Of a stretch of DNA of 64,000 nt, positions 22,394 through 47,219 are shown piece by piece (positions within the stretch are counted from its first letter, which is position 1; each line of letters begins with the position of its first letter). The notes beneath the pieces are model-generated. The model was given only the letters and a program-made list of their open reading frames with translations, made no database searches and was not told the origin of the DNA. Made by a program: the position numbers and the translations under genes. The DNA is from Parabacteroides acidifaciens. Its GTDB lineage: Bacteria > Bacteroidota > Bacteroidia > Bacteroidales > Tannerellaceae. The stretch is from NCBI RefSeq assembly GCF_003363715.1, contig NZ_QREV01000010.1, positions 1-64,000 on the forward strand. Reading direction: 5' to 3'.

Positions 22394-24754
22394 CTATTCC
22401 TTATTTCCGTAACCATATCCATACCCGTAACCATACCCATAGCCATATCCGTAACCGATACGTTTATAATTGACACCGTTCAATATGACACACAGGTTAC
22501 GCAGTTTCTCCTGCCTGTACATGCGCTCCAGATCCGGCAGCTGGCGGCGGTCGAACAAGCCGGCGCGAATCACATAGATCGTCAGGTCCGCTACCCGGTT
22601 GACAATAGCCGCATCCGCCACGACCCCGCTCGGCACGTTATCCAGAATCACATAGTCGTACCGTTCCTTCAGCCCGGCTATCAGCGTTTCCAGACGGTCG
22701 CTCAGCAACAGTTCTGCCGGATTGGGCGGTACAGGCCCCGCATGGATAATATCCAGGTTCTCATGGAATTCATTTCTTGAGATGATCTCATCCACATCCG
22801 TCACCTTGCCCGAAAGGAAATTCGTCACCCCTTTACCCGAACCAGCCGTATGCGATGTCAAAGTTCCTTTCCGGACATCCAGGTCGACCAGCACCACCTT
22901 CTTCTTTGTCAGGGCAAAGCTCATCGCCAGGTTCATCGAAACGAACGTCTTACCCGCACCCGGGTTGAAAGAGGTGAACATCACCACCTTCAGGTCTTTT
23001 GCCTTCACACGCATGAAGTCCATGTTCGTCCGGACAATACGGAAGGCTTCCGATACGGAGTCGCGTCCTCCTTCCCGGACCACAATCTCATTCTTATCCT
23101 TTTTCTCGCGTGACGGGATCTCGCCAAGGAACGGGATCGTCATACGGCCTTCCAGGTCTTTGCGCGTACGCACCTTCGTATCCATCGTTGCCTGCATCCA
23201 GAAGACACCGGCCGGGATCATGCACCCTAATATCAGGGAAGCCAACATCACCATCATCGACTTCGGAGCCACCGGTTTCTTGCTTCCCGACGCCGGGTCG
23301 ATGATACGCGCATTGCTCTCCGTGATCGCTTGCGAGAGCGCGTTTTCCTCCCGTTTATTCAATAAGTAGAGATAAAGTTCTTCCTTGATTTTCTGTTGCC
23401 GCTCGATCGACAGGACCTGCTTTTGCTGTCCCGGCACGGCCGAGATACGGCGAACGTTCTGTTCCTCCCTGCTACGGACATTCTTTATCTGGATGTTCAG
23501 GCTTACAATCAGGTTGTCCACCGAACGGACAATCGTCTGTTTCATCGCCTGTATCGAGCTGTTCAGGCTCATGACCACCGGGTTCCGGTTGCTGCTGCTG
23601 CTGACCAGGCGGTCCCGTTTCAACAGCAAGGCGTTGTATTCCCCTATCTGCGACTCGACGTTCGAATCCGATATGCCCGTATTGGCCGGTATCAGTTCCG
23701 CCTCTTTCGACGGGTCGACCAGGTAACTGCGGATATACCGGGCCAACGTTAGCTGGTTCTCTAAGCTCAATCCCTCGCGGCTGTATTCGCTGCTCTCCTT
23801 CAGGTACATGCCTGTTTCCGAAACGATATCCGTCAGTTGGTTTTCCCGTTTGAACGATTCGATATGCGAGTCCACGTTCCCCAACTCCTTTTCGATAATG
23901 ATCAGACGGTCGTTAATGAAATCCGAGGTGTTGACCGTTATCTGGTTCTTATCGTTTATCACATCCTCGTTATAGATCGCGATCAGGGTATTGACAATAT
24001 CTTCCGCCCGCTGGATCGATTCGTCCTGCAAAGTCAGGTTGATGATCGTCGCCGTCTTGCTGGCAAGCGCCACCTGCAATATCCGGTTGAAATGCAAGAC
24101 CGTCTCGTCGAGGTCGCTTTTCGTCACCCGCACCGGCGTCCCGAAATACGCTGTCGTGTAGAACAAGGTAGGCGTCACCACCACGCGGCCGACAGGTGTC
24201 TGCACCGTGTCGTTCAACGCTACCGTCACAGCATCCGAGACATCCACTGAATCCGCTTCAAAATCGGACAAGGCCACCTTGCCTTCGTCTATCGCCGTCG
24301 CCACCAACCGGAACTGCTGGTTCGGCTCCGCATCCGGGAACTCCAGATGGACCGGGCTTTGCGTATATAGTTCCGTAGTTCTCAATCCCCTTTTCTGCGT
24401 ATAGCTGATATCCAACTTCAAGCGTTTAACGACATTCTGCATCAGTTGCCTCGACTGGAACACAAGTACCTCGTTATCCACGCTGCTCTTCATGCTAAAC
24501 ATTCCCAGGTCCGAAAAAGCCGATGCCTCGCTCATTGCCCCCGATCCCTTCGTGTCGTCTTTAATCAGGACCGATGCGGTACGTGTGTACTGTTTGGGGG
24601 CCCATTGCAAATAGACAAAAGCGGCCGACATACAGACCACTACCGACAAAGCAAACCAATACCAGTTGGCCCGTACGATCTGAATGATATCTCCCAGGTT
24701 CAGCTCGTTCTCTTCCTGCTGCTGTAAGTTTTCTAATTCCTGATTAGGTTCCAT
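22394..24754 (-). CDS. wzc: Wzc-type polysaccharide co-polymerase with BY-kinase domain
   Basis: The 786-residue protein has an N-terminal Wzz chain-length domain bounded by membrane helices (about 32-53 and 500-520), a long periplasmic coiled coil, and a C-terminal bacterial tyrosine kinase: Walker A FNPGAGKT near 596-603, Walker A' VVLVDLD near 620, Walker B YVILD near 701. It ends in eight consecutive Tyr-Gly pairs (residues 768-782), the cluster autophosphorylated to control capsule length. Those codons form a hexanucleotide repeat at 22406-22456. It is flanked by Wza (upstream) and its phosphatase (downstream). Confidence 0.94.
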   Translation of the reverse strand: MEPNQELENLQQQEENELNLGDIIQIVRANWYWFALSVVVCMSAAFVYLQWAPKQYTRTASVLIKDDTKGSGAMSEASAFSDLGMFSMKSSVDNEVLVFQSRQLMQNVVKRLKLDISYTQKRGLRTTELYTQSPVHLEFPDAEPNQQFRLVATAIDEGKVALSDFEADSVDVSDAVTVALNDTVQTPVGRVVVTPTLFYTTAYFGTPVRVTKSDLDETVLHFNRILQVALASKTATIINLTLQDESIQRAEDIVNTLIAIYNEDVINDKNQITVNTSDFINDRLIIIEKELGNVDSHIESFKRENQLTDIVSETGMYLKESSEYSREGLSLENQLTLARYIRSYLVDPSKEAELIPANTGISDSNVESQIGEYNALLLKRDRLVSSSSNRNPVVMSLNSSIQAMKQTIVRSVDNLIVSLNIQIKNVRSREEQNVRRISAVPGQQKQVLSIERQQKIKEELYLYLLNKREENALSQAITESNARIIDPASGSKKPVAPKSMMVMLASLILGCMIPAGVFWMQATMDTKVRTRKDLEGRMTIPFLGEIPSREKKDKNEIVVREGGRDSVSEAFRIVRTNMDFMRVKAKDLKVVMFTSFNPGAGKTFVSMNLAMSFALTKKKVVLVDLDVRKGTLTSHTAGSGKGVTNFLSGKVTDVDEIISRNEFHENLDIIHAGPVPPNPAELLLSDRLETLIAGLKERYDYVILDNVPSGVVADAAIVNRVADLTIYVIRAGLFDRRQLPDLERMYRQEKLRNLCVILNGVNYKRIGYGYGYGYGYGYGYGYGNKE
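22406..22456. repeat. Hexanucleotide repeat coding the Tyr-Gly tail of Wzc
   Basis: Eight in-frame six-base units of the pattern CCnTAn (plus strand) encode alternating glycine and tyrosine. Unit-number changes would keep the frame and alter the number of phosphorylatable tyrosines. Confidence 0.8.
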
Positions 24755-24766
24755 GCAATTCTTTTG

Positions 24767-25567
24767 TTATTTAGAGAGTGTTACAATCAATGAGATTACC
24801 GACGCCAGGACCGATATACCGGACAGCCATACGCCGACCGAATTATTCTGGTTAATGCCGCTCTGCCCCGCTTTCGCCTTATTGGGCTCTACATACACGA
24901 TATCGTTCTGCTGCAAGTAATAGCAAGGCGATTTAAAGAGATCGGCCGAACGGAGGTCATGGTAGAGGATCGTCCGCTTTCCGTCTTTCTCGCGTATCAC
25001 CGCCACCCGGTCACGTTTACCGTAGATGGTCAGGTCGCCCGCCATACTGAGCGCTTCCAACAGCGTGATGCGGTCTCCCGAAATATTGAAACTTCCCGGA
25101 CGCGCCACTTCCCCCATCACCGATATCTTATAGTTCAGGAACTGCACCGTGACGATCGGGTCCTTGATCAGGTCGCCTTCAATCAGTTTCTCCTTGATCT
25201 GGTCGGTCAGCTGCATACGCGTAAGCCCTTCGACATGCATCTTTCCGAGGATCGGGAAATCGATATCCCCGTTCGCATCCACCAGATAGCCCAACACGCG
25301 CTGCTGCCCGTTCAAGACGCCTCCCGTCGTACCCAACTGATAAGTCACCATCGGCATATTAAACGGCAAAGCCAACTCCGGCTCCTTACAATTCACCATG
25401 ATCGACAACAAGTCGTCACTATGGATAATCACCTTGTACTTTTGTTCGATCTCCTGCTGCTTGTACGGTTCCACATCCTGCAGGTACAAGACTTCCTTCG
25501 GAGAAGTACAGGCGGTAAACAATACCACCAGGCACAAAAGTGCCTCTTTCAAATACATCTTCATCAT
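24767..25567 (-). CDS. wza: Wza-type polysaccharide export lipoprotein
   Basis: The 266-residue protein has a lipobox (LVVLFTACTS, Cys20), a Poly_export domain (YKVIIHSDDLLSIMVNCKEP, YLVDANGDIDFPILGKMHVE) and an SLBB domain (VMGEVARPGSFNISGDRITL). Unlike enterobacterial Wza it ends in a single hydrophobic helix (SGISVLASVISLIVTL). It forms the outer-membrane exit of the capsule translocon with Wzc, encoded 12 bp downstream. It lies 87 bp after the primase gene; the gap carries a heptad repeat. Confidence 0.92.
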   Translation of the reverse strand: MMKMYLKEALLCLVVLFTACTSPKEVLYLQDVEPYKQQEIEQKYKVIIHSDDLLSIMVNCKEPELALPFNMPMVTYQLGTTGGVLNGQQRVLGYLVDANGDIDFPILGKMHVEGLTRMQLTDQIKEKLIEGDLIKDPIVTVQFLNYKISVMGEVARPGSFNISGDRITLLEALSMAGDLTIYGKRDRVAVIREKDGKRTILYHDLRSADLFKSPCYYLQQNDIVYVEPNKAKAGQSGINQNNSVGVWLSGISVLASVISLIVTLSK

Positions 25568-31437: not shown

Positions 31438-32211
31438 CTACCTCTTCACAAACTCCAGCACCTTATACGCATATCTTAGTGACAGAATAAAGCGGTTGGT
31501 ATAGATATTGTTTTCACGGAATGCCCGCAGATGTTCTTTCATGATCTGCAGGCAGGCAGACAGCCCGGAGGTACTGACTCCTCCCATACGCATCGTCACG
31601 AAATCCATCGGCAGATAACGGACACGTATCCGGTGGACAAACAGATACCGCAGCAGCAATTCAAAATCCGCACATATCCTATAGTCCGTCTTATACAACC
31701 CTAACCGCTCATAGCACGAACGCCGCACATAAAACGAAGGATGGGCGGGCATAAAGCCAAGCCGCATCAGCCAGCAACGAAAGACCCTCGACGAATAATA
31801 CCTGACACATTTCGTCAAGTCCTCCGGATAGACATAATGGATATCCCCATACACCGCCTCCAGCGTCTCATCTTCCTCAAACGCCTCCGCCACCTTCTCC
31901 AGCACATCCGGCGCAGTAAAGAAATCATCCGAATTCAAGATCCCGACCACCTCCCCGGCCGCCATCCTGATCCCTTTATTCATCGCATCATAAAGCCCCT
32001 CATCCTTCCCGCACACCACCTTCCGGCACACCGGACAAAGCGCCCCCTTCCCCTCATCCACCCTTTCCACCACCTCCAACGTCCCATCCGTCGACAGCCC
32101 GTCCACAATAATATGTTCAACCTCCCGATACGTCTGCCCATTCACAGAAAGCAACGTATCAGAAATAGTCCGCGCACTGTTATAGGCGGGGGTGATGAGG
32201 GAGATAAGCAT
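31438..32211 (-). CDS. Glycosyltransferase family 2 (WcaA/SpsA-like)
   Basis: The 257-residue protein is a GT-A enzyme with LISLITPAYNSARTISDTLL at the N-terminus, HIIVDGLSTDGTLEVVE, and the metal-binding GILNSDDFF near residue 97. It would add one sugar of the capsule repeat unit on the cytoplasmic face. It is the last biosynthetic gene of the operon and is more GC-rich than the genes before it. Donor and linkage cannot be told. Confidence 0.88.
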   Translation of the reverse strand: MLISLITPAYNSARTISDTLLSVNGQTYREVEHIIVDGLSTDGTLEVVERVDEGKGALCPVCRKVVCGKDEGLYDAMNKGIRMAAGEVVGILNSDDFFTAPDVLEKVAEAFEEDETLEAVYGDIHYVYPEDLTKCVRYYSSRVFRCWLMRLGFMPAHPSFYVRRSCYERLGLYKTDYRICADFELLLRYLFVHRIRVRYLPMDFVTMRMGGVSTSGLSACLQIMKEHLRAFRENNIYTNRFILSLRYAYKVLEFVKR

Positions 32212-32225
32212 GGGGAAAAGAAGGG

Positions 32226-32774
32226 TTATATTCTATTTATTATTCTTATTTTTACAGCAGGAATGCCTTGATATATACTATTCGCATCCAAATCCTTTGT
32301 CGCGACAGAAGATACAGTTAACACAGCCCCGGCATTTACAATGACACCAGGACAAACTACAGCACGCGCCCCAATCCATGCGCCCTCTTTCACTATAATC
32401 TCCCCAATCATCAAATCAAATGTCTCTTTTTTATAGTTGTGATTACCACAAAGCAACATCGCTCCTTGAGAAATACAGACATTATCTTCAATCATAACAT
32501 CCGCCAGATTATCAATCCAGACAGATTCGCCAACCCAAACATTGTTTCCTATTTTTAAACGCCAAGGATATTTGATATTTACGGAAGGCTTTATACAAAC
32601 CCCTTTCCCTATCTTCGCTCCGAACAATTTCAACAAAGCGACTTTTAAAGAAGAAAAGGGATTCAAAGGACATTGAAAAAATATTGCATTGACTATAAAC
32701 CAAAACGTTCTTTTGATAAATCCTCTTCCCGGATCATACCAGGAATTGTCGTATTTAGAAAGATCTGTTTTCAT
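32226..32774 (-). CDS. WcaF-type hexapeptide acetyltransferase
   Basis: The 182-residue protein shows left-handed beta-helix hexapeptide repeats (KPSVNIKYPWRLKIGNNVWV, EIIVKEGAWIGARAVVCPGV, VIVNAGAVLTVSSVATKDLD) and the closing GIPAVKI typical of colanic-acid-type acetyltransferases. It would O-acetylate the repeat unit using acetyl-CoA. It overlaps the upstream SGNH gene by 4 bp. Confidence 0.88.
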   Translation of the reverse strand: MKTDLSKYDNSWYDPGRGFIKRTFWFIVNAIFFQCPLNPFSSLKVALLKLFGAKIGKGVCIKPSVNIKYPWRLKIGNNVWVGESVWIDNLADVMIEDNVCISQGAMLLCGNHNYKKETFDLMIGEIIVKEGAWIGARAVVCPGVIVNAGAVLTVSSVATKDLDANSIYQGIPAVKIRIINRI

Positions 32775-33664
32775 TGATTAATAGAGGATTGTATAAATCG
32801 GGTTATTTCAGACGCAATAACCTTTTGTCCAATTTCGTTCACATGAATACCATCCCTATAATCAGCCAACCGCATCACTTCTAAACCTTTGATTAAGGGA
32901 ATAGAATCCCGCTCACAAAAAGAAATAATCTCCTCTCCTTCCTGATTGTATGTCCCTTTCTCCACTTCTACCCGATCAGGATGCAACCAGATAAAGAACG
33001 GAATACCTTCCTTTTTAAAACGGTCAGCCAACGCCTGAAAACCGGGGTTAAAGACTTTCCCATCCTTACTAATCTCGGAAGGAGCTTCCTGTTTCAAAAT
33101 CCGGGGCAACAAATAACGGTGTATCAATTCCCAATAAGCCAATTTATACTGATGACTCGGAAAACTCGGGTTCACGTCCACAACCGGCTGATAATTGATA
33201 TTATCATGTGCATCATGCGAACTACAAAGCAAAAAAGCAACCTTAGCCCCAAACGTCCCATATCGTTTCAAATAAGCCTCACAATTATCCGGTCCCCAAC
33301 TACCGGCAGAGATATTCAGTACCTGTACTTTCTTTCCGAACAGCTTCGACAATGAAGCACATAACCGGGAAGTAGCCATGCTATCCTGCTCTGTCTGCAC
33401 TCCCCCATTGATCACGGAATCTCCTAATCCCAATATAATAAAAGCAGAAGAATCAACCGATTCACTCCGCTGACTATATTCATTATATCGGACATGTTTC
33501 TTGAAACGATACTGGTTTTGATTAGGCTGGGCAATATATTCAAAATCCGGATCCGACTGTATTAATACAGTATCGCAAAGCCCCCAGGCTTTGCGGAGAT
33601 AAATCTCCCCACCTACTAAAACAAGAACAAATGCCACTATGGCAATCCCTATTTTCTTTTTCAT
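32771..33664 (-). CDS. SGNH-hydrolase-like membrane-anchored protein
   Basis: The 297-residue protein has one N-terminal membrane helix (IGIAIVAFVLVLVGGEIYLR) and an SGNH/GDSL domain: block I GLGDSVINGG near residue 79, SAGSWGPDN near 118, and the catalytic pair in DGIHVNEIG near 272. In capsule loci such proteins deacetylate or, like AlgJ, help acetylate the polymer on the periplasmic side. Here it is next to a hexapeptide acetyltransferase, so it may trim or transfer acetyl groups. Confidence 0.75.
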   Translation of the reverse strand: MKKKIGIAIVAFVLVLVGGEIYLRKAWGLCDTVLIQSDPDFEYIAQPNQNQYRFKKHVRYNEYSQRSESVDSSAFIILGLGDSVINGGVQTEQDSMATSRLCASLSKLFGKKVQVLNISAGSWGPDNCEAYLKRYGTFGAKVAFLLCSSHDAHDNINYQPVVDVNPSFPSHQYKLAYWELIHRYLLPRILKQEAPSEISKDGKVFNPGFQALADRFKKEGIPFFIWLHPDRVEVEKGTYNQEGEEIISFCERDSIPLIKGLEVMRLADYRDGIHVNEIGQKVIASEITRFIQSSINQ

Positions 33665-33671
33665 GATTCAG

Positions 33672-34802
33672 CTACTTCAAATACACAAACTCAGGTTTCT
33701 CACCTCCATATAGAATCCACTCATACAACCGCTTCATCTTACCGGCAACCATTTCTACGGAATAATTATCTTTAATCAACTGTTTACCCCGCTCTCCCAT
33801 CGCCAGCCTTTCCTCTTCGGAAGTATTCAATGCCTCCCGGATCGTCGTAGCTAACGTATCCACATCATTATCCACCCACCAACCACAAGAATGTGTGTTG
33901 AGCTCTTCCCAAGGGGTACCTTTAGAGGCGATGACAGGGACACCTTTTACTAATGCTTCAGTAATAATATTACCAAAGTTTTCAAAATCACTGGGAACAA
34001 CCAAGTAAGAAAGAGATTCTAATGCTTTCTCTTTCTCTTTACCACTTAAGAAACCCGTAAAAACAACGTTATTTAGTTGTAAGCGTTTTACTTCTTGTTG
34101 TAGGTATTGCATATAACCGGCATCCCCATCTCCAATAACCAAAACCTCCACATCTTTACACTGTAAAGCATTTACAGCATAAAAGATACGTTCCACATGT
34201 TTACGGGGATGGATACGTCCTAAATAGCCTATTCTCTGTTTATCCGGCGAAAGTCCCCCTGTTTGCTGATTACAGGATTGAATCGGATTAGGAATAACAG
34301 CTACAGGAGACTTAATCCCCATATTTCGCAAATGCTCCATCTCTTCCATACAAGTAGCGTGCAAGCAAGCAGCCTTTTGCAAATCCGATTTCAGATATAG
34401 CCACAACGATAATTTCTTAATCATTGCAGACTTTTCAAAACACTGAGGATATAACATTCCTCTCAATGTTATCACATAAGGTTTATGTTCTTTTCTTGCC
34501 CATGAAGCTGTACAAACAGACGGATATTGCCAGATGCCCTGGATATGATAAACATCCGCCTGTTCCTTTTCCAATGCCTTACGAAAATGAGAAGAATAAC
34601 CAAACCGTTGTTCTTTCGGACGCGGAACCAAATGGATAAACGCTGAAGAATCTATCAATTGATCTTTTTCTTTATCAATATCGTATGTCAATATAACAGA
34701 AGACAGACCAGCAGCAATCTCACCTTTAACAGATAATAAAGTGCTTAAGGCAGGACCGCCCGATAGAACTCCCATAGAGGGGATTGAATGTAATATCTTC
34801 AT
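33672..34802 (-). CDS. Glycosyltransferase family 4
   Basis: The 376-residue protein is a GT-B enzyme: glycine-rich N-terminus (SIPSMGVLSGGPALSTLLSV), RIGYLGRIHPRKHVERIFYA near residue 190, and the donor-binding LVVPSDFENFGNIITEALVK near 270 with the retaining-enzyme E-x7-E spacing. It adds a sugar to the lipid-linked repeat unit. It is part of the capsule operon, 7 bp before the SGNH gene. Confidence 0.9.
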   Translation of the reverse strand: MKILHSIPSMGVLSGGPALSTLLSVKGEIAAGLSSVILTYDIDKEKDQLIDSSAFIHLVPRPKEQRFGYSSHFRKALEKEQADVYHIQGIWQYPSVCTASWARKEHKPYVITLRGMLYPQCFEKSAMIKKLSLWLYLKSDLQKAACLHATCMEEMEHLRNMGIKSPVAVIPNPIQSCNQQTGGLSPDKQRIGYLGRIHPRKHVERIFYAVNALQCKDVEVLVIGDGDAGYMQYLQQEVKRLQLNNVVFTGFLSGKEKEKALESLSYLVVPSDFENFGNIITEALVKGVPVIASKGTPWEELNTHSCGWWVDNDVDTLATTIREALNTSEEERLAMGERGKQLIKDNYSVEMVAGKMKRLYEWILYGGEKPEFVYLK

Positions 34803-34849
34803 TTTTTCCCAGAAAAGATTTTATAATTTAAATCGTCATATTCAAAACA

Positions 34850-35833
34850 TTAAACGCTTCTGTTTGGAGAATAACTCATTCTTTTACGAAAACGATGCGT
34901 ATACTTGTATTTTATCTTTCTTATAAGAAAAGATAATTTAAGACGTGGGAGCCAATATGAAAAATATATTCTATTTCTTCCATACTTCAATAATAAATCA
35001 ACCGTTATTTCTTGATATGGCAAAAAACGATTTGGTACGATCAGGAACTTTCCATCATAATCGATTTTCAAATCCACTTTCATAGGCCGTTTCAAAAAAT
35101 GTATATATAAAAACTCTTCTCTTTGTATATGTCTTTCTTTATCTAAATAATAACGGTAAAGACTCCCTGAATCCCATACAAAAACCTGATAATCATTCTT
35201 ATAATCATCTTCACTTTTATAATGAAGTAACTTAAAGTTATAACTTCGTATCTTTAAATCAGCAAAGGGTACATTCTCATATATAGGAATTCCAACAGTT
35301 TTAAAATAATAGTTTATTCCAACTTCATCTATAAAATAATATCCTAATTCAGAAGTAATATTTTCTTTATAAGAAGGTATCCCTGATAAGTTCATTTTAT
35401 AAATAGCATTAATATCTTGATTATTTCTAAATAATGTCATGTGTCCTCTCCAAGATATTTTATCGTATTCTTTATATACATATTCTTCTATCATAGAATT
35501 AAAATTGCCCCAGATCAAATCATTATCACAATACCCCCAAAAATCATATTGTTTAATATATTCACTAAACAGCTCGCCATAAGCGACCCTAAAAGCACAT
35601 ATATCATAAGGTTTATTCAGTTGAATAGGATAATCATAACAAGATTGTATATATTCCTGCAACTCTTCAAAGTTCATATAATTCACTTTAACATTAGGAG
35701 GATAATCATAGCTTGATCGATCATCCGTAAAAATAATCCAATCAATTTCAGGATTATATTGACATGACTTCAGCCATAGAGGAAAATAATTTGGGAATTT
35801 TCCAAAATATGGAAGAATAAAGACTATTTTCAT
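34850..35833 (-). CDS. DUF6625-type putative glycosyltransferase
   Basis: The 327-residue protein resembles the DUF6625 group found in capsule clusters: MKIVFILPYFGKFPNYFPLW at the N-terminus, IDWIIFTDDRSSYDYP, and FWGYCDNDLIWGNF near residue 98, whose DND could be the metal site. The fold looks GT-A-like, but activity is not demonstrated. The gene is strongly A/T-rich, like its upstream neighbours, and lies 2 bp after a GT4 gene. Confidence 0.75.
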   Translation of the reverse strand: MKIVFILPYFGKFPNYFPLWLKSCQYNPEIDWIIFTDDRSSYDYPPNVKVNYMNFEELQEYIQSCYDYPIQLNKPYDICAFRVAYGELFSEYIKQYDFWGYCDNDLIWGNFNSMIEEYVYKEYDKISWRGHMTLFRNNQDINAIYKMNLSGIPSYKENITSELGYYFIDEVGINYYFKTVGIPIYENVPFADLKIRSYNFKLLHYKSEDDYKNDYQVFVWDSGSLYRYYLDKERHIQREEFLYIHFLKRPMKVDLKIDYDGKFLIVPNRFLPYQEITVDLLLKYGRNRIYFSYWLPRLKLSFLIRKIKYKYTHRFRKRMSYSPNRSV

Positions 35834-35835
35834 AA

Positions 35836-36870
35836 TTATATAATGCTTAATAAAGTTTGAGCCACAATCTCCGGATTAATCCGCCTGGACAATTCACGAC
35901 TTTTATACGACATACGTATCAATTCTTCATCGGAAGAATTGATCAACGATTGAAGAGCCTTACGAATAGAAGATACATCTCCCGGAGTAAACAAATGACC
36001 GTTATAGTTTTCCAAAACAAAATAAGGAACTGCCCCACAACAATTGGAAGAAAGAATAGGCAATCCGCCTGCAGCAGCCTCATGCAAAACCAAAGCCCAA
36101 GGTTCAAAGACAGAAGGAAGAATAAAAGCTCCGGAGTTTTGCATTTCAACAGCCAGTTCTTCTTGTGACATAAAATCTTTGATTTCCACATCAGGGAAAC
36201 CATCCAATGTATCACGCAACGGACCATTCCCGATCAAAGTCAATACCCAATCTTTCCTATCAGGAATAGATTTCCATGCATTTAATAAAAAAGATAAACC
36301 TTTCACTTTAGCAAAACGGCCAATAAACAGAAGCCTACGAGGATAACTTATTTCCTTTGATGAAATAGATACTTTCTGGAATATATTCGTATCAGCAGAG
36401 TAGAAAGGCTCAATAATTTGAGATCGTTTAAAACCCAACCTTCGAGCATATTCATATTGCCATATTCCCGCTATTTGAATATGACTAAACCAACGTTTAT
36501 GTCTAAGCGGAGAAAACAGAACATTCAGCCATTGTTTTCCTCCCTGCCATTGAGTATCGCAACCAGCAACAATCGGTATATTACATTCCTTACGATAAGA
36601 GCCGACTACTTTACAATACAGTTTATCAATCCAACCAGAAACCCAAATCAGATCAGGTTTAATATTTCGAACTTGATTTAGTAGAGAAGAAGGATCGGAA
36701 AATGAATTACGATCATAATAAACTACATTCGGCAATTCAGGTGGTATATAAGGAGTCTTACATTTTGTCCATCTAACAATGTGGGCTGTACAATCCATTC
36801 GTAAAAGTTCTTTTATAACAACGATGTTATAAGGCATCAATTCCGAATATAGGATTAAGATTGTTTTCAT
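35836..36870 (-). CDS. Glycosyltransferase family 4
   Basis: The 344-residue protein is a GT-B transferase, with PRRLLFIGRFAKVKGLSFLL near residue 175 and the donor site ILPSVFEPWALVLHEAAAGG near 252, where the two glutamates are spaced as in retaining GT4 enzymes. Its ATG shares one base with the stop of the upstream GT4 gene. Specificity unknown; role in repeat-unit assembly inferred from the operon. Confidence 0.9.
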   Translation of the reverse strand: MKTILILYSELMPYNIVVIKELLRMDCTAHIVRWTKCKTPYIPPELPNVVYYDRNSFSDPSSLLNQVRNIKPDLIWVSGWIDKLYCKVVGSYRKECNIPIVAGCDTQWQGGKQWLNVLFSPLRHKRWFSHIQIAGIWQYEYARRLGFKRSQIIEPFYSADTNIFQKVSISSKEISYPRRLLFIGRFAKVKGLSFLLNAWKSIPDRKDWVLTLIGNGPLRDTLDGFPDVEIKDFMSQEELAVEMQNSGAFILPSVFEPWALVLHEAAAGGLPILSSNCCGAVPYFVLENYNGHLFTPGDVSSIRKALQSLINSSDEELIRMSYKSRELSRRINPEIVAQTLLSII

Positions 36871-37853
36871 TATAATGTATGATAAATTTGTAAATATGCA
36901 TTTGCCACGTAAGAAGGAGTATATTTCTCAACATTATACAAGCCTTCTTTTACGATTTTATCCCTTAGTTCTCCATTCTCAATAATAGAGATAAAACCTT
37001 TCTGGATAGCAGATACATCATAAGGATCAACAAGGACAGCCCCATTTGCTGCAATCTCTTTCATTGGAGAGATATTAGAAGTTAAAACAGGACGTCCTAT
37101 CGCCTGAGCTTCAATTATAGGCATCCCAAAACCTTCATACCAGGAAACAAAACTTACAATATCACTTTGTACATATTCATTTATGATCTCCGCATCAGAA
37201 AGATGATACACGTTTGAATAATTAATCTGATAAAATTGCAAATGCTCTTGTAAAGCGGTACTGATAATTCCTACTATTCTCAAATGGCAGGGTATCCCAT
37301 GTAATGCTTCTATTGTTCGATACAAATTCTTATTTTCTCCTGTACCAATACACAAAATCCGAGGGCAAATAGTATTAAAAGTATTTTCAACCGATTTGAA
37401 CGAAGCATCTATGGCATTTGGTATGACAGTCAGCTTATGAGGAGAACATAATTTATACTTTATAACTTTCTGCTTAGTCTCTTCTGAAATACAAATGACT
37501 TTAGCAGACCTCCAAAAAGGAAGATAGAACCAAAATATTTTATACAGAAAATGCTTCATTCCTTTAGAATATTCCAAATAACCTATATCATGCAAAGTAA
37601 TAACAGTCTTTTTACGAGGTAAGACAAACGCTAAATAATACACATCCCCTGTAATATGGTTAATACCTTTTCTATTTCGATGCACAAAAGCAAATCTAAT
37701 ATTTTTCAATATAGAAAGAATATCTGCTTTAGCACAAGGCATATAAAAATTTTCAATATGCTCCTTTTTTTCGATTTCTGCAATATAAGTTTGAGAAACT
37801 TTACCAATGCTATAGCCGGAAGAAGGATTACGATGGAAGTAAGTTATATTCAT
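36870..37853 (-). CDS. Glycosyltransferase family 4
   Basis: The 327-residue protein has GT4 features: MNITYFHRNPSSGYSIGKVS, KTVITLHDIGYLEYSKGMKH, VICISEETKQKVI, and the acceptor/donor region FVSWYEGFGMPIIEAQAIGR near residue 235. The middle resembles mannosyltransferases of capsule loci. It overlaps the FkbM-type gene by 4 bp. A/T-rich codons suggest that this block was acquired. Confidence 0.9.
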   Translation of the reverse strand: MNITYFHRNPSSGYSIGKVSQTYIAEIEKKEHIENFYMPCAKADILSILKNIRFAFVHRNRKGINHITGDVYYLAFVLPRKKTVITLHDIGYLEYSKGMKHFLYKIFWFYLPFWRSAKVICISEETKQKVIKYKLCSPHKLTVIPNAIDASFKSVENTFNTICPRILCIGTGENKNLYRTIEALHGIPCHLRIVGIISTALQEHLQFYQINYSNVYHLSDAEIINEYVQSDIVSFVSWYEGFGMPIIEAQAIGRPVLTSNISPMKEIAANGAVLVDPYDVSAIQKGFISIIENGELRDKIVKEGLYNVEKYTPSYVANAYLQIYHTL

Positions 37854-38707
37854 GAATAAATAAATAAGATATTTCCAAAAAAATTGTCTGTTGATATTTT
37901 TTCAAAATCAAACGGTTTCATAGAACATCCACATCCTCTCCAGAAACGAGTAATAGGTTTAAGAGTATATGCTTTATATCCTCTATCTATAAAATAATTA
38001 TATAAATCCACTAAAGAATATCCTGCTTGATGAGCACTTTCACTATTAAATTCACACCAAACATCAGGATGGCAACAAGAAATCATCTCCTTTCCTCCTT
38101 GTACACATCCCCATTCAGCACCTTCTATATCAATTTTTAAAAAACGTACATTTAGCCTATTATTCTGTTTCCATATAGTATCTAATGTAATAGTTTGAAC
38201 TTGCTCTTCTTTTCCGGTAGGTTTATCATACAAAGAATTACAACCGCAAGTAAAATCAGATAAAGTAAGAGTTAATATCTTATTATCTTCATCCAAAATA
38301 GCTTTTTGATAAACTTCCACATTCTTAACTTGATTTTGAAATAACACCGTTTTGATAAAAGAAGCATTAGAAGAACTTGCTTCTATTGCATAGATTTTCT
38401 CAAAGCAAGGTACTAAATTAAGAGAATAAGTTCCTAAATTAGCCCCAACATCAATAAATACCCCCTTTGATTTTTTATATTTATCAAAAAAGTATCTAAC
38501 AAAAGAAACTTCATACGCACCATCCATATATATCCAATATTGAATAAAATCACCTATATTCAATAATACATGTAGTTTTGAAAACTTCAATTTTTTAGAC
38601 TTAAAAATATTCCTTCCTTTGCAAACAGATGATAGTTTAAATAAAAACTGATAAGGAATAAATTTACAATAACTAAACAAAAACAGAATCACATTCATTA
38701 TATTCAT
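37850..38707 (-). CDS. FkbM-family methyltransferase
   Basis: The 285-residue protein carries the FkbM SAM-binding core: GVFIDVGANLGTYSLNLVPC near residue 90, KIYAIEASSSNASFIKTVLF, and VRFLKIDIEGAEWGCVQGG near 185. It would methylate a sugar hydroxyl of the repeat unit. An N-terminal hydrophobic stretch (NVILFLFSYCKFIPYQFLF) may attach it to the membrane. It overlaps neighbours on both sides by 4 bp. Confidence 0.88.
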   Translation of the reverse strand: MNIMNVILFLFSYCKFIPYQFLFKLSSVCKGRNIFKSKKLKFSKLHVLLNIGDFIQYWIYMDGAYEVSFVRYFFDKYKKSKGVFIDVGANLGTYSLNLVPCFEKIYAIEASSSNASFIKTVLFQNQVKNVEVYQKAILDEDNKILTLTLSDFTCGCNSLYDKPTGKEEQVQTITLDTIWKQNNRLNVRFLKIDIEGAEWGCVQGGKEMISCCHPDVWCEFNSESAHQAGYSLVDLYNYFIDRGYKAYTLKPITRFWRGCGCSMKPFDFEKISTDNFFGNILFIYS

Positions 38708-39897
38708 TTTTTAATCACGTTTATTTCATTATAATATGAAACAAGAAGCATATACAAATAAGCAGTTTTAACTCCTGTGAAAATAATTCCAGAAATAGAA
38801 AACAATAGAAATATCAATAATATGTAATAGGAAAATGTTCGTTTTTTTAACATCCAGTAATAGAAATACGACAATGAAACTACCATCATACCTCCATATA
38901 AAAACAACAAATTTCCTAAATCACCATCCATACCCCAATAATGATAATAAGATTCAATAATATTCATTGAAAAATGTCCAAACAGATAATGTATCACAGA
39001 AACATCTGTCATCCACAAAAAATCGAATCCAGCCAATCGTCCTCCTAAACTCTCATCATCTATATCTATACTCAAACTACGCACTTCACCAACACTTTCC
39101 ATAACATAAAAATAGAAACCTCCTAAAATCAATAATAGCAGTATTACTTTTATTATATCCTTCATATATATACCTGCTCTTTGTTTATCATAACTAATAT
39201 CAAATAGCAAGAGTGAAAAATAAACGACCATTCCGGTTCGACTTCCTGTTAAAAAGACAGACAGGCCTATTAATATATAAAATAGCAACTTATGCAATAT
39301 TTTAGCACTTTGATTTTGTATTAGATAGATAGCAAACAGGAAAATCACCATAGAAGAATAAGCATTCGGATTTCTAAAAATCCCATAATACCTACTATTA
39401 GCAGCCAATAATAAATTGTCTGCCTTTGAAACATTACTTATTACATATGCTGCATTGTCTGTATCTAATGGATAATACGTATCAATAAAATCTTTAACAA
39501 AACCAATATCAAAAACCAATGCCATTTGTGACCCCACTAATAAAAACGTACATAAATAGATAAAATTATTATTTATCGTATCATCATATTTACAAAATGG
39601 GAACAACAGAAAAAGACTGATTAATTGCATAGACATAGCAACTGATTTAAAGTCAAGCATGTTTCCAAACGAAAAACAATAAACAATAAAACTAACAAAT
39701 ATAGTAGTTATTACTGCAACTGACCATTTTTTCAGTTTTAATGGATGTCGATTTTGACACCAATATAACACAAATGGCATCACTCCTTGTAGCGCAAAAG
39801 CATACATATTTACATTAGGAGCAAAAAAAGCAATAAACAAAGCTATACGAACAATATATTTTTTCAAATTTATTCTATCTATTTTTAAACAATACAC
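38704..39897 (-). CDS. wzy: O-antigen/capsule polymerase (Wzy-like)
   Basis: The 397-residue protein has about ten to eleven membrane helices and one large periplasmic loop (about residues 260-310), the usual Wzy shape. The segment FRNPNAYSSMVIFLFAIYLI and the following SRTGMVVYFSLLL recall the Wzy_C/O-antigen ligase region. Sequence similarity in this family is always low, so the call rests on topology plus location between GT genes and the flippase. It overlaps the GT2 gene by 23 bp. Confidence 0.8.
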   Translation of the reverse strand: MYCLKIDRINLKKYIVRIALFIAFFAPNVNMYAFALQGVMPFVLYWCQNRHPLKLKKWSVAVITTIFVSFIVYCFSFGNMLDFKSVAMSMQLISLFLLFPFCKYDDTINNNFIYLCTFLLVGSQMALVFDIGFVKDFIDTYYPLDTDNAAYVISNVSKADNLLLAANSRYYGIFRNPNAYSSMVIFLFAIYLIQNQSAKILHKLLFYILIGLSVFLTGSRTGMVVYFSLLLFDISYDKQRAGIYMKDIIKVILLLLILGGFYFYVMESVGEVRSLSIDIDDESLGGRLAGFDFLWMTDVSVIHYLFGHFSMNIIESYYHYWGMDGDLGNLLFLYGGMMVVSLSYFYYWMLKKRTFSYYILLIFLLFSISGIIFTGVKTAYLYMLLVSYYNEINVIKK

Positions 39898-40894
39898 TTC
39901 TATAGATCAAAAAAGTTCTTACAAATACAGGAAACTTCATGATTAAAATATAAATATATCCTTTTAAATTAAATGGTATCGTTTGAAACATTTTCCATAG
40001 ACTAATATCAAACTTAGTCCAGTTTTTATAATAGCTTGTTTTTTCATCTTTAGAGATACTATTAGACTGATATAACAATAAATAAGTACGACTAATTGAT
40101 TCTACCATAAATGCAAGATATTTTCCATATATGGAAGTATTCACATAGAAAGACAATATTTCTTTCCAAGCGTCAACCATTTCCGTATATTCTTTGGCAT
40201 TCCTTAGAGAAAAATTCCGAAATCGATTATATTCTGTTGAATTTTCTCGTTGATAATATGTTAATGTTATATTAGACAATAAAGAACAAGAACTTGCATA
40301 ATAAAAAACGAATGGAGTAAATATACCATCTTCATTAATATGATGTGGGAAACAACGTATATTGTTTTTTTTCAAAAAAGCAATTGAATAAAGTTTATTC
40401 CATGTAATCCCTGATATCATTATCTTTCTACTATACACACTCTCCGGAATTACATATTTACCTTTAAGTAATATATCCTTATAGTAACATCCTCCTTTTA
40501 TCAGTTTCCCGTCTAAATCGACCTTATCATAGGATCCAGCCACAAAATCCACTGGTTCCTTCATCATCGCCTTATACAACACCTCTATACAATCTGGCGT
40601 TATTTCATCATCACTATCCATAAAGAACAAATACTCTCCTTTTGCATTATCTATAGCTGTATTTTTAGTTGCCCCCGTTCCTATATTATGAGGATGCTCA
40701 ATGATCCGTACTTCTTTTCCTCGTGGATGCTCGGCTACGATTTTACGGACAATATCCATGCTATCATCCGTACCCCGATCATCCACAATCAGAAATTCGA
40801 TACTATCAAAAGTTTGATTCAGAGCAGAAAGCAAAGCGCGTTCCACATAAGGCGCCACATTGTAAATGGGCATTGATAAAGTTACTTTATACAT
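39875..40894 (-). CDS. Glycosyltransferase family 2
   Basis: The 339-residue GT-A protein reads VTLSMPIYNVAPYVERALLS at the start, FLIVDDRGTDDSMDIV, and a DXD-like site in LFFMDSDDEITPDC near residue 95. The C-terminal 100 residues are helical. It would transfer one sugar during repeat-unit assembly. The gene is A/T-rich and overlaps the polymerase gene by 23 bp. Confidence 0.9.
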   Translation of the reverse strand: MYKVTLSMPIYNVAPYVERALLSALNQTFDSIEFLIVDDRGTDDSMDIVRKIVAEHPRGKEVRIIEHPHNIGTGATKNTAIDNAKGEYLFFMDSDDEITPDCIEVLYKAMMKEPVDFVAGSYDKVDLDGKLIKGGCYYKDILLKGKYVIPESVYSRKIMISGITWNKLYSIAFLKKNNIRCFPHHINEDGIFTPFVFYYASSCSLLSNITLTYYQRENSTEYNRFRNFSLRNAKEYTEMVDAWKEILSFYVNTSIYGKYLAFMVESISRTYLLLYQSNSISKDEKTSYYKNWTKFDISLWKMFQTIPFNLKGYIYILIMKFPVFVRTFLIYRSVLFKNR

Positions 40895-40909: not shown

Positions 40910-42325
40910 TTATATATGAAGACGAAGCAATGCTTCGCGATAGCCTTCTTTCAAAAAAGAAAGGCTTCCTATATTCATTTGTTTTAATATAACACGAGGC
41001 CAGTACCAGTTATTATAAGCCGACTGTGCTAATCCGGTAGACAAAACAATACCCCATAGGCCCAAATGAAGCCATGACAAAGAGATATAGCATCCGGCAG
41101 TTATTCCTAATCCCGTAAATAAGCAACTTTTAAGGAAGGGAAAATCGTTTCCTGCTATCACAGTCTGACATAAATTCCAAAAATTATGATCCAGCAACCT
41201 GAAGCCGGCACAGGCTAACAGAATAAAGGCACTTGGTAAAGTCGTATTTGAACCTATAAACCGAATAGCATAGGGAGCAACTGTTATGAGTAATATCGTT
41301 CCTACCACAAAAAAGGAATAGAATATAGTCATTGTATAAGCGACTTCTTTTCTAAACAGTGTTTTGTTATCCGATACACGAAGGGAAGCAAAGCGAGGTT
41401 GATAGATCGTGAACATGATACCGGAAATTCCCCCGATCAAACCGATCAACTGTATCATCAAGCCATACGAAGCAACTTCTTCCAAGGACAGGTAAATACC
41501 GGCCAGTAAAGTAGATGCACCATAGGTTAAATACCCGGATAATGTGGTTATCCCAAGTTTTTTCGAGTTATGCCACAGGGTCTTAAATAACGCTATCTTT
41601 TCTGTGACTGATACTTTATAAGACGATAAAGTTTGTCTTAGTCCTGCTGTAAAATAGTAGCGATATGACAAGTATCGGGTCAAGAATGGATAAATAAAAT
41701 TAGCTATCACCACCCCTAACAAACCATATCCGGCATATAACAAAACATAAGTAAGCACAATCTTCAAGACATTGGAATAGACCATCGCCTTCTTACTTTC
41801 TTTGATTTTACCTGAACCAGTCAATAATGCGCTATAGTAGGAGTAATAAATTTGAAAGAACACACCTGCTGAATAGATCAACCAAATAAGAAGACTGTTC
41901 GGGAGATTACTGAAACCGGCTGTCACTTGATAAACATATCCAGTGCCGGCTGTTAGCATAAGTAATAAGACAACACCTCCCATCAAACGGTATATCCAAC
42001 GGGCTGTCTGGATCAGTGCGGCTAAAAGAGAATAATTTATTTCAACCTTTACAAAACTGTCCAGTGTTTCTATTCCATTCTTCAACAATCGTTGTGCACC
42101 ACTATAGACATACGTTACATTCCGTCCGAATTGGGGAGAAAAACCAAAGTCAACCAAAGTAACCAACTGTCCCACCGAAAGCATCAAATAGTTCATACCG
42201 ACCTCTTCAGCAGAAAGCATTCTTAATACCATTGGCAATATAATAATCCCGGATGCAATAGAAAAGAACTGAGCAAAATAGCCCCAAATAATATCTTGTC
42301 GACTGACCTTTATTGTCTGAGACAT
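40910..42325 (-). CDS. wzx: Repeat-unit flippase (Wzx-like)
   Basis: The 471-residue protein has about twelve to fourteen membrane helices and belongs to the polysaccharide-transport branch of the MOP superfamily (IIWGYFAQFFSIASGIIILP at the N-terminus). It should move the lipid-linked repeat unit to the periplasmic side for polymerisation. It is 2 bp downstream of the UDP-xylose synthase gene. GC content rises again from here toward the operon start. Confidence 0.85.
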   Translation of the reverse strand: MSQTIKVSRQDIIWGYFAQFFSIASGIIILPMVLRMLSAEEVGMNYLMLSVGQLVTLVDFGFSPQFGRNVTYVYSGAQRLLKNGIETLDSFVKVEINYSLLAALIQTARWIYRLMGGVVLLLMLTAGTGYVYQVTAGFSNLPNSLLIWLIYSAGVFFQIYYSYYSALLTGSGKIKESKKAMVYSNVLKIVLTYVLLYAGYGLLGVVIANFIYPFLTRYLSYRYYFTAGLRQTLSSYKVSVTEKIALFKTLWHNSKKLGITTLSGYLTYGASTLLAGIYLSLEEVASYGLMIQLIGLIGGISGIMFTIYQPRFASLRVSDNKTLFRKEVAYTMTIFYSFFVVGTILLITVAPYAIRFIGSNTTLPSAFILLACAGFRLLDHNFWNLCQTVIAGNDFPFLKSCLFTGLGITAGCYISLSWLHLGLWGIVLSTGLAQSAYNNWYWPRVILKQMNIGSLSFLKEGYREALLRLHI

Positions 42326-42327
42326 TA

Positions 42328-43263
42328 TTATTCTAAGTCCTTAAAATACTCAATCGTCATCTTCAACCCCTCTTCCAGCTTCACCTTCGGTTCCCAACCA
42401 TTAAGCATTTCTTTTGCCAAAGAAATATCCGGTTTACGCTGTTTCGGATCATCGCCCGGTAACGGGCAATGTACGATTTTGGAATTGGAACCGGTGAGCT
42501 CGATTATCTTTTCAGCCAGTTCCAGCATTGTGAACTCGCCGGGGTTACCGATATTGACCGGGCCGATGAAGTCGTCGACTGTAGCCATCATACGGACCAT
42601 GCCTTCAACCAGGTCATCCACATATTGGAAGCTACGGGTTTGAAGGCCGTCGCCGTAAATCGTAAGATCTTCGCCTCGTAAGGCCTGCATGATGAAGTTG
42701 GAGACGACACGGCCGTCGTTCGGGTTCATATTCGGACCGTAGGTGTTGAAGATGCGGATGATTTTAATCCGTACGCCATTCTGACGGTGGTAGTCCATGA
42801 AGAGCGTCTCGGCAGAGCGTTTGCCTTCGTCGTAGCAGCTACGAATACCGATCGGATTGACATGTCCCCAATAGCTCTCTACCTGCGGATGGACAGCGGG
42901 GTCGCCATAGACTTCACTGGTGGATGCTTGGAGGATCTTCGCATTCGTACGTTTCGCCAACCCTAACATGTTCATCGCTCCGTAGATGGATGTCTTCATC
43001 GTCTTGATGGGGTTATATTGGTAATGGGGAGGGGACGCGGGACAGGCCAGGTTGTAGACTTCGTCGACCTCGGCATAATAGGGAGTGGTCACGTCGTGAC
43101 GGACCAGCTCGAAGTTATGACAGTCCAGCAGCTGCCGGATATTATCCTTGCTACCGGTAAAATAGTTATCCAGACAAATCACATCATTGCCTTCTCTGAC
43201 AAGACGCGCACAGAGATGGGAACCGATAAAGCCGGCGCCTCCCGTTACTAAAATCCGTTTCAT
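42328..43263 (-). CDS. uxs: UDP-glucuronate decarboxylase (UDP-xylose synthase)
   Basis: The 311-residue extended SDR enzyme has the NAD site [15 protein letters not shown], the UXS signature [32 protein letters not shown], the catalytic SCYDEGKR (YxxxK) near residue 147, and [20 protein letters not shown]. It converts UDP-glucuronate to UDP-xylose. Its substrate is made by Ugd, encoded upstream with a 4-bp overlap, so the capsule probably contains xylose or a xylose-derived sugar. Confidence 0.93.
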
Positions 43264-44576
43264 TTTTTCCCTATTCGTGAGTAAACAAAATATTCTTCTT
43301 CCAACTCTTTCGCATCATATATGTTACGACCGTCGACAATCACATTTCCACGCATCAGGCGTTTGATACATTTCCAACTGGGCAGGCGGAATTGTTTCCA
43401 TTCGGTGATCAGCAACAGGGCGTCTGCATCGATCACAGCCTCGTACATATCCTTGCAATATTCGACTACCGAACCGATCCGACGCTTACATTCGTCCATC
43501 GCCACAGGATCGTAGACTTTGACGATTGCACCGGCTTTCAATAGTTTGTCGATAATGACCAGGGCCGGAGCTTCACGCATATCGTCGGTTTCGGGTTTGA
43601 AGGAAAGGCCCCACAAGGTGATGATCTTACCTTTCAGTTCTCCACCGAACAGTTTATTTATCTTATCGAAGACTATGCTTTTCTGATTTTCATTCACTTC
43701 CTCTACCGCTTCTATCACGCGCATATTGTAGCCGTTCTCTTTTCCGGTGTGGATAAGCGCTTTCACATCTTTCGGGAAACAACTGCCTCCATAGCCGCAA
43801 CCGGCATACAGGAAACGGTTACCGATACGACTGTCCGATCCCATCCCCTTACGGACAGACTCAACGTCGGCACCGACGATCTCACAGAGGTTGGCAATAT
43901 CATTCATGAAACTGATACGGGTGGCAAGCATGGCATTAGCGGCATATTTTGTCATCTCGGCAGACCGGATATCCATAAATATAATGGGATAGCCATTCAG
44001 CAGGAAAGGACGGTAGAGACGTTCCAGAAGCTTACGGGCTTCTTCACTCTCCACACCGACCACGACACGATCCGGAGCCAGAAAGTCTTTGACGGCAGCT
44101 CCTTCTTTCAGAAATTCAGGATTGGAAGCGACATCGAAAGGGATTTGCACGCCCCGTTTATCCAATTCTTCGCAGATAGCGGCTTTGACTTTTCCGGCAG
44201 TTCCTACCGGAACCGTGCTTTTGGTGACCAACACGATATACCGGTTCATATGGCGTCCTACCGTACGGGCTACTTCCAATACATATTTCAAATCGGCACT
44301 GCCATCTTCGTCCGGAGGAGTCCCGACGGCACTAAAGACAACCGAAACCTTATCCAGGCAAGAAACCAAGTCTGTTGTAAAATGCAAACGGCCGGCCTGT
44401 ACATTCTTTTGCACCAGGCTTTCCAAACCGGGCTCATAAATCGGCATAACGCCTGCTTGTAAAGCTTTTATTTTAGCTTCATTAATATCTACGCAAGTGA
44501 CATCGACTCCCATTTCAGAGAAGCATGTACCTGTCACCAAACCGACATAGCCGGTTCCTACAATCGCTATATTCAT
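43260..44576 (-). CDS. ugd: UDP-glucose 6-dehydrogenase
   Basis: The 438-residue enzyme oxidises UDP-glucose to UDP-glucuronate. Seen are [20 protein letters not shown] (NAD site), [20 protein letters not shown], and the catalytic cysteine motif [13 protein letters not shown] near residue 262. It overlaps both the WecA-like gene and the UDP-xylose synthase gene by 4 bp. Confidence 0.95.
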
Positions 44577-45697: not shown

Positions 45698-45756
45698 ATC
45701 TATTAAGTATTAAGTGAACATGACAAAGTTCGTCAGTCACAAAGGGTGTACTAACT

Positions 45757-45949
45757 AAAATGACTAAAAAAAACGTTCCTTTTTTTTAGTCATTTTTTAG
45801 TTGATATATCCAAAAAAATTGCGTTAGACCTTATATTTCTTTATTCGTTGATCTACAAGTAATATATTATTATTTTATTTTGGTTGTTCTAAATTAAATA
45901 TCTACTTTTGCAATGACTAAAAAAAAGGAACGTTTTTTTTAGTCATTTT
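45757..45949. promoter_or_regulatory. Invertible promoter element of the capsule operon (OFF orientation)
   Basis: Perfect 38-bp inverted repeats lie at 45757-45794 and 45912-45949 around 117 bp. Each repeat is nearly self-palindromic: AATGACT, eight A, an asymmetric CGTTCC (left) or GGAACG (right), eight T, AGTCATT. The core AAACGTTCCT differs at one position from the ARACGTWCGT motif I recall for Mpi-inverted capsule promoters of Bacteroides fragilis. The enclosed promoter (45879-45910) reads rightward, away from the operon. Inversion would aim it at the gene starting at 45697. Confidence 0.9.
45879..45910 (+). promoter_or_regulatory. Capsule promoter inside the invertible segment
   Basis: TTTG at 45879-45882, a 20-bp spacer, and TACTTTTG at 45903-45910 form a textbook Bacteroidetes promoter that ends two bases before the right inverted repeat. 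It points toward fmt in this sequence, not toward the capsule genes. No second TAnnTTTG is seen on the opposite strand of the segment. Confidence 0.85.
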
Positions 45950-46244
45950 TTAAATGTTCATTTTTAACCATCCAATAGCGGAGTAGAGTTATTTATTTCC
46001 ACAAAACCACGTATAAACTTTCTTTTTGTTACCATTCTTTTCATATTGAAAACTAAATGATAATCTCAAAAAGTCTATTTTCAGGGGTGTGTAAAGAAAA
46101 TCCAGGTAAGAGAGTAAAGCACAAAGAATTTTTGTTCCCAGTTAAAGAATAACCAGAAACAAAAACTCTTGTAGATATATATACATTATTAATATAAGGA
46201 GAGAATAATACTGCGCAAAATCAAAGAAGAATAAAAACAGTAAT
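45950..46244. other. Intergenic stretch between invertible element and fmt
   Basis: About 295 bp of A/T-rich DNA without a supported gene; only ORFs of 30 codons or fewer are seen. In the sequenced orientation the flanking promoter would transcribe into it and then antisense to fmt. Confidence 0.5.
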
Positions 46245-47219
46245 CTATTTTACCGTATATTCCCCAATCTGCTTAAACCCATTCAAAAACTCCGTAATAG
46301 ACAGGCGTTTCTTTCCGGCGAGCTGGAGGGAGAGCAGACGGAGGTAGCCGCCTTCTACGGCGATGTCGACATAGCTTTTCTTGTCTGTGCAGATGGTGCC
46401 GACGGGAAGGTTATGGGTGGCGGGATGTTTTTCCGCCTGGTAGACCTTCAAAACGGTCGGGACGCCTTCGGGAGAGATGATCTCCGTCCAGGCGGCGGGA
46501 TAAGGTGACAAGCCACGGATGAAATCGTATATCTTTTTCAAGGGCTGGTGCCAGTCGATACGGCAGGTTTCTTTAAATATCTTCGGGGCGGGACGGAGTT
46601 CGACTGAGTCTTGATAGAACTCTTCCTGGGGTATGGCGTCTGTCTTGCCTTCCAACAGCAGGTCGACTGTCTCCAACACCAGGCCGGCACCCATCGTCAT
46701 CAGAGAGTCGTGCACAGTGCCGACATCGTCCGTATCGGCTATAGGGAGGTGTTTCTGGCGGATGATCTTGCCGGTGTCGATCTCATGTGTCAGGAAGAAG
46801 GTCGTCACGCCGGTTTCCGTATCTCCGTTGATGACCGCCCAGTTGATCGGGGCTGCTCCCCGGTACTGAGGCAAGAGAGAGGCATGGAGGTTAAACGTCC
46901 CCAGACGCGGCATGTTCCAGACCACCTCCGGCAGCATACGGAAGGCCACGACAATCTGCAAGTCAGCCTCCAACGCACGGAGTTCGGAGAGGAAAGCTTC
47001 GTCTTTGAGCTTCACCGGCTGGAGCACAGGCAGACCTTTCGAGACGGCATATTGCTTGACGGGGCTTGCCTGCAAGACACTACCATGACGGCCTACGGGT
47101 TTGTCCGGCATCGTGATCACGCCTACTACATTATATCCGCCTTCAACCAAGGCACGCAGGCTCTCCACGGCAAAGTCGGGAGTGCCCATATATACGATTC
47201 GCAAATCTTCTTTCTTCAT
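46245..47219 (-). CDS. fmt: Methionyl-tRNA formyltransferase
   Basis: The 324-residue enzyme formylates initiator Met-tRNA using 10-formyl-tetrahydrofolate. Motifs: RIVYMGTPDFAVESLRALVE at the N-terminus, FNLHASLLPQYRGAAPINWA near residue 113 (catalytic His and Asn region), GVTTFFLTHEIDTGKI near 137, and the C-terminal tRNA-binding domain (VLKVYQAEKHPATHNLPVGT). Last gene of the tsaC - sugar transferase - CLC - fmt operon, 4 bp after the CLC gene. Confidence 0.96.
   Translation of the reverse strand: MKKEDLRIVYMGTPDFAVESLRALVEGGYNVVGVITMPDKPVGRHGSVLQASPVKQYAVSKGLPVLQPVKLKDEAFLSELRALEADLQIVVAFRMLPEVVWNMPRLGTFNLHASLLPQYRGAAPINWAVINGDTETGVTTFFLTHEIDTGKIIRQKHLPIADTDDVGTVHDSLMTMGAGLVLETVDLLLEGKTDAIPQEEFYQDSVELRPAPKIFKETCRIDWHQPLKKIYDFIRGLSPYPAAWTEIISPEGVPTVLKVYQAEKHPATHNLPVGTICTDKKSYVDIAVEGGYLRLLSLQLAGKKRLSITEFLNGFKQIGEYTVK

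Follow-up and report, generated by a model that had tools for sequence, protein, structure and literature searches.

Our computational analysis of a 64,000-nt stretch of Parabacteroides acidifaciens DNA (referred to in its entirety as the window) suggests that a surface-polysaccharide operon on its minus strand is governed by a phase-variation switch, which in all likelihood is flipped by a serine recombinase of the Mpi family whose gene lies elsewhere in the genome. As the first-pass annotation of this DNA had proposed, two perfect inverted repeats (38 nt each, 100% complementary, 117 nt apart) enclose a TTTG-N20 promoter of the Bacteroides type, with the genes of the operon running leftward from a first ATG at 45697 (Table 1). 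The TTTG-N19..21-TANNTTTG pattern has 5 matches in the 64 kb against 0.84 expected. Both window sites reach 55 bits on a weight matrix of the 36-bp site, where the next best score in the window is -14.5 and the maximum in random sequence -10; the sites are beyond chance. A single nucleotide separates the end of the -7 box from the right-hand site, a placement common to the homologous switches L228, L229, L230 and L238 in relatives. Each repeat is itself a near-palindrome, also in keeping with the earlier description, with stems of 17 and 15 nt flanking CGTTCC or GGAACG, and its inner half-site has GG in place of CG beside the centre, departing there from the AAACGTTCGT core. With the promoter directed to the right and the operon to the left, an invertible promoter in its OFF orientation, the reading first offered, is still the best one. 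When 45757-45949 is inverted in silico the -7 box comes to lie on the minus strand at 45796-45803; its distance from the ATG of the wecA-like gene is then 98-99 nt, close to the 'about 95 bp' originally estimated. The contig, in which the OFF orientation was assembled, is unbroken through the switch, and one orientation therefore dominated the sequenced DNA. The invertible promoter is genuine and very probably functional.

Table 1. Features of the switch and its surroundings, in window coordinates.
Feature	Position	Strand	Details
Remaining operon: glycosyltransferases, FkbM methyltransferase, DUF6625, hexapeptide transferase	31438..40894	-	
Wzx-like O-unit flippase	40910..42325	-	NF041503, 415.9 bits vs cut-off 300
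NAD-dependent epimerase/dehydratase	42328..43263	-	
UDP-glucose/GDP-mannose dehydrogenase family gene	43260..44576	-	
WecA/MraY-like sugar-phosphate transferase, first gene, 374 aa	44573..45697	-	PF00953
Conserved leader motif TTTGTGACTGACGAAC	45728..45743	-	3' strand of predicted RNA/non-template hairpin
Left inverted repeat	45757..45794	.	36-bp recombinase site 45759-45794; core CGTTCC; central TT 45776-45777
117-bp segment, predicted to invert	45795..45911	.	enclosed by repeats
Bacteroides-type promoter TTTG-N20-TACTTTTG	45879..45910	+	-7 box 45903-45910
Right inverted repeat	45912..45949	.	36-bp site 45912-45947; core GGAACG; central AA 45929-45930
Strong terminator-like hairpin downstream of fmt	46124..46170	-	folding z -5.1
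fmt (methionyl-tRNA formyltransferase)	46245..47219	-	3' end toward switch

In the mechanism that we propose, an Mpi-family serine recombinase would bind the two 36-bp dyad sites, cut at their central TT/AA dinucleotides and, through rotation and rejoining, flip the promoter. In the assembled orientation the promoter would fire away from the operon (OFF), and after inversion, with its -7 box ~98 nt from the wecA-like start codon, it would be ON; from its putative start the transcript would comprise a leader with two hairpins, that of the site and a second, conserved one, and would continue into the wecA-led Wzx-type operon. Its genes include a WecA-like initiating transferase, a Wzx-like flippase and several glycosyltransferases, as in Wzx/Wzy-dependent operons, besides modifying enzymes, and by this content the operon from 45697 to 31438 is a wecA-led Wzx-type surface polysaccharide operon. 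For a Wzy/O-antigen ligase there is a weak Wzy_C match at 38704-39897 (22.6 bits, below the cut-off of 31.7), and export and chain-length genes lie further left (Wza-like 24767-25567, Wzc-like 22394-24754 and CpsB-like 21654-22391). The product may be a true capsule. The genes upxY and upxZ were not found as the first operon genes, that place being taken by the WecA-like gene, and a genome-wide search for NusG domains found no such protein in the window operon.

The promoter had also been described as facing fmt, and the direction given was right; fmt however is convergent and has its 3' end facing the switch, which leaves the outward-pointing promoter with no obvious gene to drive. The closest relatives of this fmt are from Parabacteroides, and a search across that genus is in agreement. 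Downstream of fmt the terminator-like hairpin probably stops fmt transcripts before they enter the capsule genes, and such a block to read-through is a requirement of an OFF state. An Rfam search on the dyad and the fmt hairpin returned only chance-level microRNA models. No switch-type sites were found beside fmt in other Parabacteroides and Bacteroidales, and thus the placement of the switch is not a conserved fmt feature.

Additional support comes from the family of sites to which the two repeats belong. Its 36-bp dyad consensus, AATGACTAAAAAAAACG(NN)CGTTTTTTTTAGTCATT, occurs at ~20 loci of this genome (G000) as matched pairs of copies and in 20 of 39 Parabacteroides genomes, and the reversed control pattern has zero matches in G000. 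Sites were scored by a weight matrix with a neutral centre on stretches from G000 and eight relatives (nine genomes), in which 69 of 70 neighbouring site pairs were inverted, with family pairs spaced 140-186 bp apart. The single pair that is not inverted is a direct one, part of a cluster of three sites in another genome (two direct and one inverted; L243 3565-3951, G013:C11), an arrangement that could permit deletion besides inversion. In all 69 inverted pairs the central dinucleotide is the same in inverted register (against a mean of 19 and a maximum of 34 pairs in permutations), the centres being AA/TT in 34, AT in 15, TA in 14 and AC/GT in 6, and the arms within a pair differ on average at 6 of 36 positions. 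In fact positions 18 and 19 are the only ones that both vary between loci and match perfectly within pairs (69/69, with 33 and 41 expected); positions 21 and 28 have a partial excess of matches, and outer arm positions little or none relative to permuted pairs. Such a pattern is not what one would predict from chance, or from common ancestry of the arms by itself. Serine recombinases of the Hin/Gin class have a 2-bp overlap, and for tyrosine recombinases an overlap of 6-8 bp is expected. On this evidence a matched dinucleotide between divergent arms reads as the signature of a serine recombinase whose overlap is 2 bp, and it provides a simple rule by which true switch pairs can be recognised: their two sites have identical central dinucleotides when compared in inverted register. 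The first-pass annotation had suggested that the asymmetric core sets the polarity of strand exchange, which is plausible for the window, where TT/AA would permit only inversion, but is not general, since 29 of the 69 pairs have self-complementary AT or TA centres. The signal for strand exchange is predicted to be the central dinucleotide, here TT/AA, the fuller asymmetry of CGTTCC not being general. We also considered the central dinucleotides as an address code that isolates loci from one another, an idea weakened by the finding that at least 8 loci of G000 share TA.

As to the enzyme, a gene at G000 C35:35440 matches the Mpi equivalog model NF009949 at 321.9 bits (cut-off 272), and along its length its protein shares 47% identity with Mpi of B. 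fragilis Q1F2, whose gene stands head-to-head with a tyrosine recombinase gene, as in PMC4747536. There are four Mpi-family genes in the genome and none adjoins the window, and for both reasons the enzyme is not uniquely assigned; their distance from the window is as expected for a master invertase. One of the three paralogs (G000:C134:45869, G000:C5:475 or G000:C123:94842) might perform the inversion in place of the C35 equivalog. These match the same family at 184.6, 187.1 and 92.8 bits, the C134 paralog is 43% identical to B. fragilis Mpi, and the sites fall into sub-types (CGTTCC as opposed to CGTACG and CGATCG cores). We nevertheless regard a paralog as the unlikely choice: the curated cut-off is passed by the C35 gene only, and a gene of this type is present in nearly all members of the genus (over the cut-off in 32 of 39 genomes).

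Other readings of the locus fare considerably worse. The segment could be a relic, a former switch frozen in the OFF orientation, given that OFF is the sole orientation in the assembly and that the wecA-associated switches of relatives are likewise OFF. These are found in G008 (L228 and L230) and G013 (L238), beside WecA homologs 60-64% identical to that of the window, with the -7 box again 1 nt from the site; L295, with a 54% identical WecA, also appears OFF, judged only by its aligned promoter position. The sister switch L229, however, has a wecA homolog on its left, a CapD-like gene and the leader motif on its right side only, and a promoter pointing right, that is, ON. Orientation calls followed an automatic rule of thumb by which the longest divergent ORF is the target, the side being decided at L229 by the leader motif, and promoter calls below about 8.8 were treated as unclear. 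Relative to the leader, then, sister switches are found in both orientations. Moreover, the window has an intact promoter and arms that match perfectly along all 38 bp, where decay would be expected of a neglected site, and a true Mpi gene is present in the genome; a frozen relic is for these reasons very improbable. Because L229 (2384-6289, G008:C13) lies between divergent polysaccharide genes, WecA-like on the left and CapD-like on the right, inversion there might choose between two operons.

Inversion by a tyrosine recombinase of the Tsr type seems to us slightly more improbable still, as the signal of matching within pairs spans exactly two bases at the centre and not a 6-8-bp overlap, no integrase gene lies next to the switch, and the core resembles that of the B. 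fragilis Mpi switch. The genome does contain nineteen PF00589 matches, and some invertible polysaccharide promoters of Bacteroides use tyrosine recombinases (PMC4747536). Finally, that there is no switch, but a fixed promoter between dyads that serve as transcription terminators or hairpin elements, can be dismissed almost entirely. RNA from each dyad could indeed fold into a 15-bp hairpin, and the sequence 3' of it is U-rich. Terminators, however, leave the strict dinucleotide match in inverted register and the paired sites 140-186 bp apart unexplained, and a fixed promoter pointing at the end of fmt would be without a target.

The favoured reading, inversion by an Mpi-family serine recombinase, places the window switch close to known systems. 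In B. fragilis Mpi controls seven polysaccharide promoters among 13 regions (PMC4747536), and similar to its capsule promoters of the PSA-PSH type the window has a promoter of the -33/-7 form between inverted repeats with an AAACGTT core that matches in part, an invertase gene that, as for most B. fragilis switches, is far away, and a polysaccharide operon downstream. A B. fragilis Q1F2 switch (L336) has AAACGTTCGT-core repeats upstream of upxY/upxZ-like genes, which ties this core to the classical Mpi system. Its arms however are 168 nt apart as against 117 here, its outer arms read TGTTTCAAAA... as against AATGACTAAAAA..., and its first genes are upxY/upxZ where the window has a wecA-like gene; the outer half and centre of the window site match AAACGTTC of L336, whereas the inner half has GG instead of CG. 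Within the same genus, Parabacteroides distasonis also has invertible promoters before polysaccharide loci (PMC12118408, PMC10773633), which usually come with a UpxY/NusG-type gene (PMC9409006, PMC12118408), unlike the window operon. In the IP-ARG study of gut Bacteroidales glycan operons near resistance genes, wecA likewise lies immediately downstream of an invertible promoter and the TTTG / TANNTTTG promoter is the same, although those switches are directly beside an invertase gene (PMC8748976) and the window switch is not. Here we find an Mpi-family gene, an enclosed promoter before a surface-structure gene, dispersed sites of the same type and an identical 2-bp centre; this is a known type of switch, Mpi-like DNA inversion, and no novel system. 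Mpi-like control of surface polysaccharides, a trait that in this order has been linked to phage resistance and host interaction (PMC12118408, PMC10939037), gains with it an example from Parabacteroides.

A by-product of this work, the leader between the switch and wecA, is perhaps of greater interest than the switch. On the ON side of L229, as in the window, L228, L230 and L238, the 3' strand of a predicted hairpin reads (T)GTGACTGACGAAC, GTGACTGACGACC or GGGACTGACGAAC, and the motif recurs 56-57 nt from the switch before the CapD-like operons L232, L240, L280 and L297. It also precedes a wecA-like operon of the same genome that has no switch sites (G000:C35:12681, motif 12635-12650), with similar unswitched loci in G009, G012, G014, G015 and G022; the distance from the unswitched wecA operon to mpi is about 23 kb in G000 and 18-20 kb in G009, G012 and G015. 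Copies of TTTGTGACTGACGAAC, some with one or two changes, were seen at L329, L330, L331, L318 and L310 as well. Only two genes of the genome encode a NusG domain, nusG itself (C57) and an orphan paralog (G000:C134:48494-48769; L225 6297-6899, minus strand), which lies ~2 kb from the Mpi-family gene C134:45869 and whose product shares 29% identity across 75 residues with the UpxY-like protein next to the B. fragilis switch. An attractive reading is that the leader would act as an ops-like element for this paralog, and we tentatively raise the possibility of two layers of control, in which promoter inversion would be followed by recruitment of the orphan NusG paralog (G000:C134:48494) by the ops-like GTGACTGACGAAC hairpin. 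UpxY and leader DNA are reportedly the subject of work by Saba et al. in 2024 (cited in PMC13114119). If true, a NusG paralog acting in trans would replace the operon-encoded UpxY of Bacteroides, and the leader layer would connect the core wecA operon, which has no switch, to the polysaccharide operons that have one; the shared hairpin makes trans-acting antitermination in polysaccharide operons lacking UpxY directly testable.

Several further observations concern the site family at large. Seven G000 contigs (C62, C73, C74, C78, C80, C102 and C118) end within or near family sites, perhaps owing to mixed orientations or to short shared repeats; as evidence of mixed orientation these ends are only suggestive, as identical stretches of 76-77 bp common to some loci may explain them. 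A search of a plasmid collection gave one match to the switch, whose site is matched over 41 bp (97.6%) by the Phocaeicola massiliensis plasmid OY725999.1 (11282-11321); this hints at mobile copies of such switches, and a phage collection gave none. The targets of family switches also include very large proteins ending in DUF6383 (among them those at L012, L014 and L017), which account for 4 of the 7 other own-genome targets scanned and for 15 of 39 in relatives, and these switches would amount to a large phase-variable surface repertoire.
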